This document shows, one piece after another, positions 35,536-40,915 of a DNA stretch of 41,248 bases; within the stretch, counting starts at the first letter, position 1, and every line of letters begins with the position of its first letter. The position numbers and the translations under genes are program-made. The DNA is from Oscillospiraceae bacterium. GTDB lineage: Bacteria; Bacillota; Clostridia; Oscillospirales; Ruminococcaceae. Where the stretch lies: assembly GCA_017533485.1 (NCBI GenBank), contig JAFXIC010000029.1:1-41248 (forward strand), in the 5' to 3' direction. The notes beneath the pieces are model-generated. The model had not been told where the DNA came from, did not search any database, and worked only from the letters and a program-made list of their open reading frames with translations.

Positions 35536-35564
35536 TTGATATTTTCGGATTTTTATGATATAAT
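35536..35564 (+). promoter_or_regulatory. Plus-strand promoter without a downstream gene
   Basis: TTGATA (35536-35541) and TATAAT (35559-35564) are 17 bases apart, a near-consensus promoter. No gene starts within 440 bases. The transcript would begin near 35571 and could fold with a 6-bp closing stem (35592-35597 with 35710-35715) around two hairpins. Confidence 0.65.
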
Positions 35565-35609
35565 ATGATGCAGAATCCGATGAAAAAATCAATCTGTCTG
35601 TACAAGTTA

Positions 35610-35829
35610 AAAGAAAAAATCACTACCTATCACTGGCAGTGATTTCAGGAAAACGCAAATGTGTACCGGCATCTGCGCTTGAGAAATGCGGGAGGATACA
35701 AGCCGGAAAACAGATATTCAGAGAGGGTTTTTTGTTCACAGCAAGAGGGGGCTGTGCGGGAAAAAAGCCTGTATTTCCGCCGCATATTCGTAAATATTTT
35801 TGCAGTCTTTGAAAGCGTTGACTGACTAC
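35610..35829 (-). ncRNA. Candidate structured small RNA, minus strand
   Basis: The segment lacks a gene but has a minus-strand promoter at 35836-35864 and a Rho-independent terminator at 35611-35645. The implied transcript is about 220 bases. It folds into a hairpin with perfect arms 35737-35742/35751-35756 and CU-rich loop CCCCTCTT, and another with arms 35677-35681/35699-35703 (or, competing, 35666-35670/35702-35706) whose loop contains CCTCCC. I do not recognise an RNA family. The opposite strand also has a promoter (35536), so the true strand is not certain. Confidence 0.4.
35611..35645 (-). terminator. Rho-independent terminator of the candidate small RNA
   Basis: An 8-bp stem (35617-35624 with 35638-35645) followed on the minus strand by TTTCTTTT, with T also inside the stem end. 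The T-run exists on the minus strand only. A second ATCACT copy inside the loop allows an alternative pairing. Confidence 0.65.
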
Positions 35830-35835
35830 AATTGC

Positions 35836-35864
35836 ATTATAGCACAGCCGTTTTCAAATAGCAA
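35836..35864 (-). promoter_or_regulatory. Minus-strand promoter ahead of the small RNA
   Basis: On the minus strand TTGCTA (35859-35864) and TATAAT (35836-35841) are 17 bases apart. Inverted arms surround it: 35828-35838 (ACAATTGCATT) and 35863-35875 (AATGCAGAATTGT), nearly complementary, which could form an operator. It is divergent from the AraC gene. Confidence 0.6.
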
Positions 35865-36007
35865 TGCAGAATTGTACATTCAACTGTTATTTTATCACCA
35901 ATTTTCCCCGAAAGATGTCTGTATTCCGCGAACTTACGGGCATACAACTTCTCTCCGCTGACCGAATATCCCGACACGGAAGCTTTTTTTGGAAAGGAAT
36001 GAGATCC

Positions 36008-36902: not shown

Positions 36903-36932
36903 TTGACATTTCTGTATATTTTGTGGTAAAAT
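36903..36932 (+). promoter_or_regulatory. Promoter of the tandem GGDEF genes
   Basis: TTGACA (36903-36908) and TAAAAT (36927-36932) are 18 bases apart with a TGG ahead of the -10. It separates this operon from the AraC gene. Confidence 0.75.
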
Positions 36933-37003
36933 ATTCGTGTGTAATATATCAATTATCAACAGAATCCCGTATGATTCTGAATCCAAAAAGGAGAGCGCGC
37001 GGA

Positions 37004-38944
37004 ATGCCAAAAAATATTGCTGTTGTCGTTTCCTGCCTCAATGAGGGCTACCAGAACCGCATCTTGCGCGGTATCCGGGACTATGCTTATGAACGTAAGG
37101 TCAACGTCTGTCACTTCGTCGCGGCGGGCGGCTTAACGCAGAATCCTGCACATGACGCCGGAGAATATCAGATCTTCCATCTCCCCGATCTTTCGAGATT
37201 CGATGGCGTGATTCTGATGGGAACGACCATCCAGTCTCCTGAAATCGTTTCCGGACTGATCTCGACAGTCAAGGCAGCAGGCATCCCCTGTGTGTCGATC
37301 GACGTCGATTTTCCTGAAATCTCCGCTTCTGTCGGTACGGATAATTATTTGTCTATGCGCGAGCTGACCGAGCATCTCATTTCCGTACATGGCTGTAAAA
37401 GCTTCGCATTCCTCTGCGGGCCGGCGGAAAACGACGAAAGCAATATGCGGCTGCGCAGCGTTCGGGAGGTTGTCTCGGAACATGGGCTCGATCTCCCCGA
37501 AAACCGCATCTATCAGGGCGATTTTACCCAGCTCAGCGGCAGAAGATGTGCCAGAAAGCTCATCCAGGAACACCGCAACGGCAAACCGCTCCCCGACGCA
37601 CTGATCTGTGCAAACGATTCGATGGCGCTTGCTGCCATTACCATGCTCGAACAGCGTCAGTGTCGGGTTCCGGAGGATATCATCGTCACAGGCTTCGATG
37701 AAATTGACGAAACAAAATCCTTTATGCCGGAGCTTACGACCATCGCAAGACCGCTCTATGAAAGCGGATATCAGGCGTGTACGCTCCTCGAACAGTATTT
37801 CCATAACCCCCAAACGCCCCATCAGACCATTATCCTCGATACCAACTTTATCAAAGGTCTGAGCTGCGGCTGCCGCCAGCCCTCCGACTGCTGTGCGGAG
37901 GCAGTCAAAAAAGAAAATTTCCGCTATATTATGCAGTACCGCAACGGCATCTACCAGAATAATATGATCCATTGCGCGCTCGCAGGCTGTGAAAATATCG
38001 AAGAAATTGTGGAATGCTTAAAGCCATTCGTTGAGGGACTCCGGTGTGATTCCTTCTATCTCTGTCTGAATGATGAATGGATCGGCGAGAATGACGCGCT
38101 GCTCGGACGTCAGTATATTGACGCCGTCACAAAACACCGCGGCCCTGACTATACCGCCTCCGTCAGCATCCCACTCGCCTACAAAAACGGGAAATTCTCC
38201 TCGATCGAATCCTTTGCGGTCTCCGATCTTGTACCGGAGCTCTGGGATTCCACCGATAAAGGCAATACCTTCTTCTTCTTCCCGCTCCATTTCCGGGATG
38301 AATGTCTCGGCTATATCGTATTCTCGAATACCAACTATCCGCTCGAATCCCCGAGCGTCCATGCGATGATGATGACAATCTGTACCGCAATCGAAAATGT
38401 ACGGAAAATCTGCTGTATGAATGCGGTCACCAATGTCCTCGAACGACTCTATGTCATCGACCCGCTGACCGGTATCCATAACCGCAACGGCTTCGCCAGA
38501 AAAACAAAGAAACTCTATGAAATCGCAATCGAAAAACAATATCCCGTCATGGTGATGTTCGCGGATATGGACGGACTGAAAATGATTAACGATGTCTACG
38601 GCCATACCGAGGGCGATGCTGCGCTCAAGGAAATCGGCGCAATCCTCCAGCGAATCTGTCACGAGGATGAGGCATTCTGTCGATTCGGCGGCGATGAATT
38701 TCTGCTCTTTAAAATCAATGCAACCGAGGAACAGGGCTTACAGCTCAAAGCGGATTTCTATCGGGAAATGGAAAAATCCCGCGTCGAGAATAATTTCCCC
38801 TTCCCCCTCGAAGCCAGCATCGGTTTCCATATCGAGGTTCCAACCGAGAATACCTCCATTTTCCAGATGATCGCAATCGCTGACCAGAAAATGTATGAGC
38901 AGAAGAAGAAACGGAAACAATCCAAATATGTCCGCAAAGACTGA
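37004..38944 (+). CDS. LacI-type sugar-binding domain/GGDEF diguanylate cyclase (1)
   Basis: The 646-residue protein has no signal peptide or membrane helix. Residues 1-285 form a periplasmic-binding-protein-like domain as in LacI/PurR, without the DNA-binding headpiece (KNIAVVVSCLNEGYQNRILRG, GVILMG, ALICANDSMALAAI, EDIIVTGFDEI, PELTTIARP). A GAF-like middle follows (about 320-475, with GLRCDSFYLCLND and FPLHFRDECLGYIVF). The C-terminal GGDEF domain (about 480-640) has DPLTGIHNRNGF and an intact FGGDEF (562-566). The RxxD product-inhibition site is missing. It likely makes cyclic di-GMP in response to a small ligand. It is the first of two paralogs 42 bases apart. Confidence 0.9.
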   Translation: MPKNIAVVVSCLNEGYQNRILRGIRDYAYERKVNVCHFVAAGGLTQNPAHDAGEYQIFHLPDLSRFDGVILMGTTIQSPEIVSGLISTVKAAGIPCVSIDVDFPEISASVGTDNYLSMRELTEHLISVHGCKSFAFLCGPAENDESNMRLRSVREVVSEHGLDLPENRIYQGDFTQLSGRRCARKLIQEHRNGKPLPDALICANDSMALAAITMLEQRQCRVPEDIIVTGFDEIDETKSFMPELTTIARPLYESGYQACTLLEQYFHNPQTPHQTIILDTNFIKGLSCGCRQPSDCCAEAVKKENFRYIMQYRNGIYQNNMIHCALAGCENIEEIVECLKPFVEGLRCDSFYLCLNDEWIGENDALLGRQYIDAVTKHRGPDYTASVSIPLAYKNGKFSSIESFAVSDLVPELWDSTDKGNTFFFFPLHFRDECLGYIVFSNTNYPLESPSVHAMMMTICTAIENVRKICCMNAVTNVLERLYVIDPLTGIHNRNGFARKTKKLYEIAIEKQYPVMVMFADMDGLKMINDVYGHTEGDAALKEIGAILQRICHEDEAFCRFGGDEFLLFKINATEEQGLQLKADFYREMEKSRVENNFPFPLEASIGFHIEVPTENTSIFQMIAIADQKMYEQKKKRKQSKYVRKD

Positions 38945-38986
38945 ATCCTGACAGTTTAAGAATCGGATGATAACGAGGTGAATAAG

Positions 38987-40915
38987 ATGAAGTATACTAT
39001 TGCTGTGATTGCTTCGGGTGTTGACGAAGAATATCAACAGTCGATTTTAAGCGGTATCCACCGCTATGCTGCACAGCATCATGTCAATATTGCGCATTTT
39101 ATTGCGTTCGGCGGTATGCTCAATAACCCGAAATATGATATGGGTGAATATAATATTTTCCAGCTCCCCAATTTTTCACTCTTTGACGGTGTGATTCTGC
39201 TTTCGAATACATTCTCATCCGATCTGGCTGACGAAATCTCGAAACGTATCCGCGATGCAGGTGTTCCTGCGGTCAGTATCGACAAGGAACTCGATGATAT
39301 GTACTATATCGGAATCCATAATGACTCCGCTATGGAACAGATTACTCGCCACTTTATTGTCAACCATAATGTCCGGCGCTTCAATTATATTTCCGGACCT
39401 GATGATAATACCGAAAGTATCGCCCGACTTTCTGCGTTCCGCCGTGTGCTGGAAGAATATGATATTCCGCTCGAACCCGAACGGATCTATCATGGTACAT
39501 TCCGTGCAAAGGATGGCAGACGGGCAGTCGAATCCTTCTTAAAATCCGAGCTGGAATTCCCCGAAGCAATCGTCTGCGGCAATGACGCGATGGCGATGGC
39601 GGCAATTCTTGCCCTCGAAACACATGGCATCCACTGTCCGGACGATATCCTCGTATCGGGCTTCGATAATATCTATAACGCAAAGAATTTCTCCCCCGCA
39701 CTCTCTACGGTCGAGCGTCCGCTGATGCAGTCGGGTGCGCTGGCTTGTGAGCTGATCTGCCGCCATTGTTCCGGAGAATATCCGCCGCGTGTCCAGGAGC
39801 TCAACGCCGTTCCGATTTATTCCGAAAGCTGCGGCTGCGGCTGTTCTTCGGGCGAGGAAATCCCGATCTTTAAAAAGCGTAATTACCAGACGATCGAAAA
39901 AACAAATCGTGAAATCGCCCGTCTCAATCAGATGACCTGTTCGTTGGTAGAATGCGATACGTTTGATGAATATCTCGATGCACTCCGTATGACTGTGCTC
40001 AATACCGGATGTGAGGAATTCTATCTCTGTCTCAACGATAACTGGTATAATAAACAGATTCCCCATGAAGCAGGCTATACCGGTGAATTACAGCCCGAGG
40101 AATATACCGTAAAGGGCTATTCGAAACGTATGATCATGCCAATGATCTATTTCGACGGCGAATTCCATCCCACCGAAAGCTTCTCTTCCGATAAGGTCCT
40201 TCCGCGGCTGCGCTATGAAACCGATAATATGCGGAATATGTATTTTGTACCCCTCCATTTCCGTGAACGCTGTCTCGGATATTTTGTCATCGTCAATACC
40301 GATCTTCCGATCCGAAGCTCCCTGTTCCATACCTGGAGCATCAATATCAGCAATTCCCTCGAAAATCTTAGAAAGCTTCTCTGTCTGGATGAGGTTGTAA
40401 AAGAGCTCGATAAGCTGTATGCAATTGATTCGCTGACCGGAATTTATAACCGGAATGGCTTTAAGAGAAGCTCGAATGAGGAATTTAAACGCTGTATCGA
40501 AGAACAAAAACCTGTTATGATTATGTTCGCCGATATGGACGGTCTCAAGAGTATTAACGATAATTATGGCCATAAAGCCGGCGACCATGCCATTCGGAGT
40601 ATCGCTTCTATTTTACAGGAATGCTGTCTGGATGGAGAAATTGCGTGCAGATTCGGCGGCGACGAATTCTTTATCTTCGGCGCAGAATATTCGAGTGAGA
40701 AAGCGATTGCGATCCGGAAACGGATTCAGGATAGTATTGATATCTGTAACCGGAATTCGGGACGCCCATATCAGCTCAGCGTCAGTATCGGTGCCTGTAT
40801 TACAGTACCTGCACCCGGAAGTACGGTCTTCCAGCTGATTACAATCGCAGATAACCGGATGTACGAGGAAAAGAATAAGAAGAATCCCTCGAAATATCTA
40901 AAACAAAATCTCTGA
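38987..40915 (+). CDS. LacI-type sugar-binding domain/GGDEF diguanylate cyclase (2)
   Basis: This 642-residue paralog has the same layout as the protein before it. The LacI-like domain (1-285) shares patterns such as DGVILLSN, AIVCGNDAMAMAAI, DDILVSGFDNI and PALSTVERP. The GAF-like middle is at about 310-470. The GGDEF domain is at about 475-635 with DSLTGIYNRNGF and FGGDEF (557-561). No RxxD site is visible (LDGE at that place). The ligand-binding part has diverged more than the GGDEF, suggesting a different ligand. The CGAGGTG box sets the ATG at 38987; a GTG at 38978 is in frame but overlaps the box. Confidence 0.9.
   Translation: MKYTIAVIASGVDEEYQQSILSGIHRYAAQHHVNIAHFIAFGGMLNNPKYDMGEYNIFQLPNFSLFDGVILLSNTFSSDLADEISKRIRDAGVPAVSIDKELDDMYYIGIHNDSAMEQITRHFIVNHNVRRFNYISGPDDNTESIARLSAFRRVLEEYDIPLEPERIYHGTFRAKDGRRAVESFLKSELEFPEAIVCGNDAMAMAAILALETHGIHCPDDILVSGFDNIYNAKNFSPALSTVERPLMQSGALACELICRHCSGEYPPRVQELNAVPIYSESCGCGCSSGEEIPIFKKRNYQTIEKTNREIARLNQMTCSLVECDTFDEYLDALRMTVLNTGCEEFYLCLNDNWYNKQIPHEAGYTGELQPEEYTVKGYSKRMIMPMIYFDGEFHPTESFSSDKVLPRLRYETDNMRNMYFVPLHFRERCLGYFVIVNTDLPIRSSLFHTWSINISNSLENLRKLLCLDEVVKELDKLYAIDSLTGIYNRNGFKRSSNEEFKRCIEEQKPVMIMFADMDGLKSINDNYGHKAGDHAIRSIASILQECCLDGEIACRFGGDEFFIFGAEYSSEKAIAIRKRIQDSIDICNRNSGRPYQLSVSIGACITVPAPGSTVFQLITIADNRMYEEKNKKNPSKYLKQNL

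Follow-up and report, generated by a model that had tools for sequence, protein, structure and literature searches.

The window analysed here, i.e. the whole stretch of DNA with its 41,248 nucleotides, probably encodes on its minus strand a free-standing small RNA that acts in trans: it would pair at two sites with the leaders of glycoside hydrolase messages, block their Shine-Dalgarno (SD) sequence and turn translation down. From the conserved sequence features described below, this RNA is most likely transcribed, most likely pairs with the hydrolase leaders and most likely acts on them as a repressor. Fibre breakdown in rumen and gut relies on bacteria of this kind, and the post-transcriptional control of their cellulases is little described. 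If the reading is true, the RNA would be a direct handle on cellulase output and a clear case of one RNA co-evolving with several messages.

The sequence-only reading of this DNA had described a segment without genes, flanked by a deacetylase and an AraC gene, in which each strand carries a promoter and the minus strand also a terminator, along with several hairpins; we found all of these in place. The plus-strand promoter (35536-35564, TTGATA-17-TATAAT) agrees with the consensus at 11 of 12 positions and the minus-strand promoter (35864-35836, TTGCTA-17-TATAAT, with the -35 box at 35864-35859 and the -10 box at 35841-35836) at 10 of 12, each with TG ahead of the -10; on the minus strand, a transcription start is expected near 35829. 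The minus-strand terminator has its stem at 35646-35616 and a T-run reaching 35611. Between 34500 and 37000 we counted 10 promoter-like sites, vs 3.8 ± 2.0 in shuffles, so that a single one of them proves little, and two terminator-like sites where 2.9 were expected, a number not above chance. Such sites are cheap in DNA of this kind and the case therefore rests on conservation.

The minus-strand transcript of about 220 bases with several hairpins that had been outlined stood up well, since the RNA from 35829 to 35611 is conserved and folds at -64.4 kcal/mol, better than its shuffles (z = -4.27, 0 of 200 as good). The proposed plus-strand fold of the same DNA did not, being near chance (z = -1.10, 27 of 200 shuffles as good). 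In 18 representative copies, with 60 shuffles each, the mean z was -5.1 for the sense and -2.8 for the antisense strand; with the z of the window copy, this comparison favours the minus strand and led us to reject a structured RNA on the plus strand. An antisense pair, also suggested earlier, is likewise disfavoured as the main function: beside the near-chance plus fold, only one of the other 27 loci, that of the close relative L126, has a corresponding but weaker plus promoter at this position (TTGATT-17-TATTAT, 9 of 12 positions). When the 200 bases after each RNA were scanned, a different promoter reading back into the RNA was found in L115 (10 of 12). There may be an antisense transcript in the lineage of the window. 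A transcript from the plus promoter at 35536-35564 would run antisense through the entire small RNA toward the AraC gene (36008), and a 32-base match to the plus-promoter stretch is also present at G011:C209.

The small RNA (35611-35831, minus strand) is about 220 nt long in the window and measures 166-222 nt in the 28 copies as cut by script. It opens with a 5' hairpin, P0 (35800-35831, minus strand), in which 35831-35824 pairs with 35807-35800. Then comes P1 (35683-35789, minus strand), a long irregular closing helix with its 5' strand at about 35789-35761 and its 3' strand at about 35719-35683, which encloses both the hairpin P2 and a CCCUCUC bulge. P2 (35737-35756, minus strand) consists of CACAGC, the loop CCCCUCUU at 35750-35743 and GCUGUG, and carries a first C-rich motif, CCC(C)UCU, in its apical loop; the second C-rich motif, CCCUCUC (35721-35727, minus strand), forms the bulge 3' of P2. 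The hairpin P3 (35651-35680, minus strand) exposes the nearly invariant loop CCGGUACA at 35669-35662, and P4 (35611-35646, minus strand) is the intrinsic terminator with its T-run. We observed that CCCUCUC is kept in 28/28 copies and that all 28 have two C-rich motifs ahead of P3, and in the predicted structure these conserved motifs sit in loops or unpaired regions. CCCUCUC is open in the model of P1 used for the arm-swap test below; in single-sequence folds of the window copy, most of it is either paired with the P1 U-run or unpaired, according to the structure considered. In its constancy the P3 loop CGGUACA equals the C-rich motifs. A short peptide encoded by the RNA was considered and rejected, since no reading frame is conserved across the 28 copies.

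A comparison between related genomes for covariation had been proposed as a check on the earlier reading, and its outcome was positive: the RNA is present in 28 of the 30 genus genomes and its helices P0 to P3 covary. For P0, the arms of the 28 copies pair at -10.1 kcal/mol with their own partners vs -6.8 kcal/mol when swapped between copies (0/20000 permutations), the helix being weak in L123 (-1.0) and L121 (-4.6). For P1 the corresponding values are -19.7 and -12.8 kcal/mol, again with 0/20000 permutations, and both helices gave the same result with the 18 representatives. P2, P3 and P4 were assessed in a sequence alignment of the 28 copies, with the helices taken from its consensus fold. 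Together they show 96.7% standard pairs, changes on both sides at 11 of 22 pairs (5/6 in P2, 4/7 in P3 and 2/9 in P4) and 47 double-change cells, vs 13.7 ± 4.7 in shuffles, and slid controls were 29-54% paired. P4, with 99.2% of its cells paired, adds little to the covariation. In the copies of L121, L122 and L125, P3 and the terminator are separated by an insert that resembles an extra hairpin.

A first DNA search gave matches in 9 of 12 relatives of the same genus and in none of 8 genomes of the same order; in G011, what matched was the plus-strand promoter, at another place in the genome, and the other matches fell within the RNA or its promoter. Searching by motif gave 21 stretches, 16 of which are copies and five of which were judged from their sequence to be chance matches (L010, L015, L016, L024 and L026), as was G007:C151. 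The 16 copies belong to metagenome-assembled genomes labelled Ruminococcus sp., Oscillospiraceae or Clostridia, several of them named for rumen, omasum, rectum, horse or pig samples. We then used the covariance model R1, built from 18 copies (a second, antisense match in L108, at 23.9 bits, was omitted from the alignment A3), and it detected one strong copy each (73-119 bits) in 28 of the 30 genomes of the genus; 18 of these copies belong to the model-building set and 10 lie outside it. All 13 genus genomes with a completeness of 90% or more and a contamination of 5% or less were positive, and the two without a match, G025 and G006, are 88% and 81% complete. Among 396 genomes of the family, R1 was strong in 7/7 of the same genus, and the other 389 gave weak matches only (26-37 bits, in 22 genomes). 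The best six of these weak alignments, among 12 loci, rest mainly on the terminator, on which ground RNA homologues outside the genus were rejected. The motif pair CCCTCTN{20,50}GNCGGTACACA occurred outside the genus in 8/389 genomes, as did its reversed control (also 8). The RNA family is, in these searches, confined to a single genus of bacteria of the Ruminococcus type from gut and rumen.

With Rfam 15 at the gathering score, no family matched the RNA, either in its window copy or in the copies from 20 homologue loci, and only tRNAs passed, in agreement with the earlier statement that the segment resembles no known class. 6S RNA (RF00013) was rejected, as it had no match at the locus and the 6S RNA of this genome lies at G000:C31:50326-50530 (68.8 bits). 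A new small RNA, one of the possibilities first raised, is the one supported, by the minus-strand transcription unit, downstream genes that only close relatives have in common, the covarying helices, the conserved promoter of its own and the lack of an Rfam match.

We now come to its candidate targets. AGAGGG, the complement of the C-rich motifs, is found in pairs in hydrolase leaders, with the second copy at the SD site. Across the genome of the window the complement of the second motif shows no excess ahead of ATG (35 matches vs 31 in the control); the one place with two tandem copies precedes a family 9 glycoside hydrolase (PF00759, 2.4e-89), whose start is signal-peptide-like. The closest genus matches of this hydrolase, at 23 loci and with 57-100% identity, are called GH9-A here; GH9-B is a second family 9 group, with 15 leaders. 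The pattern AGAGGGN{10,40}GAGAGGGGN{3,12}ATG was present in 23 of 30 genus genomes and its reversed control in 2 of 30. It has 33 matches in the genus, of which 25 precede a gene, and all 25 genes are glycoside hydrolases: 17 GH9-A, 6 GH9-B, one CBM4-GH9 and one GH26 with CBM35 (six were identified with Pfam, the others assigned through matching the GH9 query). By eye, the starts of all 25 resemble signal peptides. The eight matches without a following gene are six copies of one G005 repeat, G021:C44 and G002:C155.

The hydrolases were compared with 253 background genes taken from the 28 RNA loci. GAGAGGG lies within positions -20 to -1 in 21/23 GH9-A, 10/15 GH9-B and 2/253 background genes, with start codons that were chosen by script, SD-like starts being preferred, for GH9-A and GH9-B, and by a similar, not identical rule for the background. 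Two GAGGG are present in 21/23 GH9-A, 11/15 GH9-B and 0/253 background leaders, counted over 80 bases for GH9-B and 72 for the others, and an exact pair of AGAGGG in 17/23 GH9-A and 8/15 GH9-B leaders. Complementary G-rich sites at the SD are thus a property of the candidate target set and are conserved in relatives.

Outside the genus, the pattern occurred in 32 of 389 genomes, below the reversed control (42). It was found at 45 places, 37 of which were fetched; of the eight left out, two overlap a fetched one and six are further repeat copies in G158 and G042. Among the fetched stretches, L287 is short (164 bases). A reading frame of at least 90 aa follows in 10 of the 37. By Pfam, none of these 10 reading frames is a glycoside hydrolase; they are aminotransferases, citrate synthase, an oxidoreductase, a nuclease and similar proteins, two being without a family. 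The link between two-site leader and hydrolase is therefore seen in the RNA-bearing genus and not outside it.

Most GH9-A leaders keep the two sites despite a variable spacer. The first site is exposed in a hairpin loop, for example CCAAAAAU-GAGAGGG-AUUUUUGG or UGCCGGAU-GAGAGGGAA-CUUCCGGCA, and the second, GAGAGGGG, stands directly 5' of the start codon, at the SD. The first site is present in 21/23 GH9-A leaders, and in 20 of those 21 it is surrounded by a stem of at least 7 pairs, the exception being G000, the genome of the window, with a stem of 5 pairs (5/6). In an arm-swap test on 19 distinct GH9-A leaders, the hairpin arms pair at -8.7 kcal/mol with their own partners vs -6.1 kcal/mol when swapped (0/10000 permutations), and so covary. 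In GH9-B, AGAGGG is carried by the loop of a different hairpin, for example UGCG-UAGAGGG-CGCA (11/15 leaders by the looser GAGGG rule), and the arm-swap result is weaker (46/10000 permutations, 9 distinct leaders). No Rfam family matched in the hydrolase leaders. A conserved leader peptide in GH9-A was considered and rejected because, by eye, an upstream start codon is not kept. In many GH9-A leaders (L200, L204, L214 and others), the AGAGGG hairpin is also preceded by a further hairpin (GUGUCGG...CCGAC) and by a shared promoter-like stretch, GTCCATATAATACAG...TATAAT.

Several observations count against the assignment of these targets. G010 and G027 have the RNA, and their GH9-A has only GAGAGG at the SD; conversely, in G025 and G006 the sites are present and the RNA match is absent. 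In G000, the stem around the upstream site of GH9-A is weak and is not formed in the minimum-energy fold, and the GH9-B of this genome has the SD site only. At three further GH9 places of the same genome, no AGAGGG was found in the fetched stretches. GH9-A was first noticed through the motif in G000 and its orthologues, being of common ancestry, are not independent; this concern is only partly addressed by the background genes, the controls and the genomes outside the genus. Mean duplex energies, computed with inner structure ignored, are -28.6 kcal/mol for GH9-A, -28.1 kcal/mol for GH9-B and -19.0 ± 6.1 kcal/mol for the background, and 9/21 GH9-A and 8/15 GH9-B leaders are not in the best 10% of the background, so that the computed duplex energy separates targets from background only on average. 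As a side observation, in the genome of the window a single GAGAGGG also stands before the start of a purine nucleoside phosphorylase-type gene and of a flavoprotein-like gene (L178 and L181).

According to the mechanism that we favour, the P2-loop motif CCC(C)UCU and the adjacent CCCUCUC would contact both AGAGGG sites of a hydrolase message. The bound RNA would then cover the SD sequence and translation would stop. The target messages would be those of the two GH9 families and, in single genomes, of the CBM4-GH9 and the GH26 enzyme. For G000, a two-part pairing of -35.8 kcal/mol is predicted, in which the SD is bound by the P2 region and the upstream site by the second motif; in an alternative arrangement, the P2 loop would kiss the leader loop and the second motif would lie on the SD.

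The same pairing could have the opposite sign, the small RNA raising translation or shielding the mRNA from decay. We consider such an activation unlikely, since the second site is the SD itself, whose occupation normally blocks initiation. It would be consistent with the folds of several leaders, in which part of GAGAGGGG is paired, and with the gut-bacterial small RNA GibS, which seems to switch on, perhaps by an indirect route, a galactosidase-glucosidase operon (PMC7366714, in excerpt).

We give a little less weight still to the idea that the main job of the RNA lies elsewhere and is centred on the P3 loop CGGUACA, which would bind a protein or another target, the hydrolase match being secondary. 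This loop is indeed nearly invariant, with UGCCGGUACACA in 25/28 copies and UGACGGUACACA in 3/28 (consensus UG[C/A]CGGUACACA). However, both C-rich motifs are equally constant, and a role as 6S RNA is taken by the other locus, with its 68.8 bits.

It is improbable that the AGAGGG sites serve an RNA-binding protein and that the C-rich motifs of the RNA match them by coincidence. The leaders do resemble the classic CsrA layout, which consists of a hairpin-loop site plus an SD site. A CsrA match was found, however, in none of the 30 genus genomes, some of them incomplete, while three control genomes were positive, and this makes a CsrA-type reading of the leaders unlikely. In addition, CsrA needs GGA, which is not kept at the sites, as in GAGGGUUU and GAGGGCGC. 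A CsrA sponge of the CsrB/CsrC kind was also rejected, with CsrA in 0/30 genomes and 0-4 GGA in each RNA (15 of the 28 copies have a single one).

Judged from its sequence, the RNA that would act on the hydrolases forms a separate transcription unit with its own promoter and Rho-independent terminator: the -10 box and the terminator stem with its T-run are present in 28/28 copies, the best-scoring -10 being TATAAT in 27 and TACAAT in one. A structured RNA with a terminator could also be a riboswitch or attenuator for the minus-strand downstream gene, as the sequence-only reading had allowed. This is very improbable here, as the terminator that ends the RNA is kept in all 28 copies and no downstream gene is fixed. 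The genes after the terminator are common to close relatives only and are often convergent, like the deacetylase gene of the window, and a riboswitch for a fixed gene is therefore disfavoured. Promoter-like sites are common in the region, yet genus-wide conservation with compensatory changes leaves hardly any room for chance promoters and hairpins in a spacer without a functional RNA.

Upstream of the promoter we observed a conserved element (35862-35896, minus strand), made of GATAAAAT (from 35896), ACAGT (35887-35883), ACAAT (35875-35871) and CATTG (35866-35862), with a layout close to GATAAAAT-N-ACAGT-N7/8-ACAAT-N4-CATTG in which CATTG overlaps the -35 box. Of the 27 copies whose upstream sequence is available, 26 have CAGT-N7/8-ACAAT-type-N4-CATTG (gap 7 in 16, gap 8 in 10), and the remaining one, L115, has one base changed (CAGC). 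From this conservation, the element is a probable binding site for a regulator. A search for it at other promoters, with the gap fixed at 8, gave 23 matches and recovered 10 of the 28 known copies; recovery was low because 16/26 copies have a gap of 7.

The conserved neighbour of the RNA is a divergent gene (38978-40915, plus strand) encoding a protein with Peripla_BP_3 and GGDEF domains according to Pfam. Its orthologue, with 67-84% identity, lies near the RNA and divergent in 23 of the 27 other loci, which makes a functional link to the RNA possible. An AraC-type gene stands between the two in the window, L126, L110 and L112, and a second Peripla/GGDEF gene stands between them in the window, L126, L113, L117 and L118. 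The L104 locus is cut by a contig end. L121, L122 and L125 have other neighbours, namely SpoVAC and uracil phosphoribosyltransferase (Upp) genes (Pfam on L121), and they keep the promoter and the upstream element despite this. The upstream element and the divergent gene together suggest that the RNA may be tied to carbohydrate sensing. The divergent GGDEF message was rejected as a target of the RNA, since its SD, mostly GAGGTGA, has only GAGG in common with the sites.

By analogy, the RNA most likely works like RNAIII and LhrC, and we do not claim descent from either. RNAIII, with its 514 nt, is a much longer quorum-sensing RNA from another order with virulence targets, and the Rfam scans here gave no match to a known family. 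Like the RNA described here, RNAIII of Staphylococcus aureus uses C-rich hairpin loops on G-rich signatures, with two sites per mRNA: an RBS duplex plus a loop-loop contact on coa, and two loop-loop contacts, in the 5'UTR and at the RBS, on rot (PMC2837412, in excerpt). LhrC of Listeria monocytogenes resembles it in that redundant CU-rich motifs, located in a loop and in an unpaired stretch, pair with the SD region; it differs in its three CUCCC motifs, one of them in the terminator loop, its five copies per genome and its other targets, and the excerpt of the source mentions no closing helix like P1 (PMC4132741). IsrR of staphylococci and FsrA of Bacillus subtilis also carry C-rich regions in loops or unpaired stretches, and FsrA binds the SD through a C-rich motif; unlike the RNA described here, whose candidate targets are glycoside hydrolases, they belong to Fur-controlled iron sparing (PMC9410917, in excerpt). 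GibS of Bacteroides thetaiotaomicron is likewise a conserved intergenic small RNA of a gut polysaccharide degrader with carbohydrate metabolism genes as its targets; it differs in its 145 nt, its largely unstructured 5' seed and its phylum, and the excerpt of the source mentions no cellulase (PMC7366714).

A C-rich small RNA that pairs with the SD is thus of a known kind; this family and its target set appear new, according to Rfam and the literature matches listed. Among the matches listed, which are mostly without subscription journals, titles and abstract starts gave no small RNA that targets cellulase mRNAs in either Ruminococcus or cellulosome-forming clostridia, nor did the excerpts of three cellulosome papers (PMC10311766, PMC3880215, PMC8219983). 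These excerpts deal with control of the cip-cel operon via mRNA processing and with small RNA predictions in Clostridium thermocellum.

A broader reading, to which we give slightly less than even chances, is that one dedicated RNA serves as a genus-wide post-transcriptional switch for plant-cell-wall hydrolases. Several hydrolase genes would have acquired independently the same landing platform, AGAGGG in a hairpin loop plus GAGAGGGG at the SD, and the divergent partner would link the switch to c-di-GMP. If this is true, the sugar-binding-like/GGDEF partner would connect cellulose degradation with sugar sensing and c-di-GMP. In the window, 36923-38944 and 38978-40915 (plus strand) encode tandem proteins that combine a LacI-type sugar-binding-like domain with a GGDEF domain; such a domain is an unusual input for c-di-GMP synthesis, and by eye neither protein has an obvious membrane segment.
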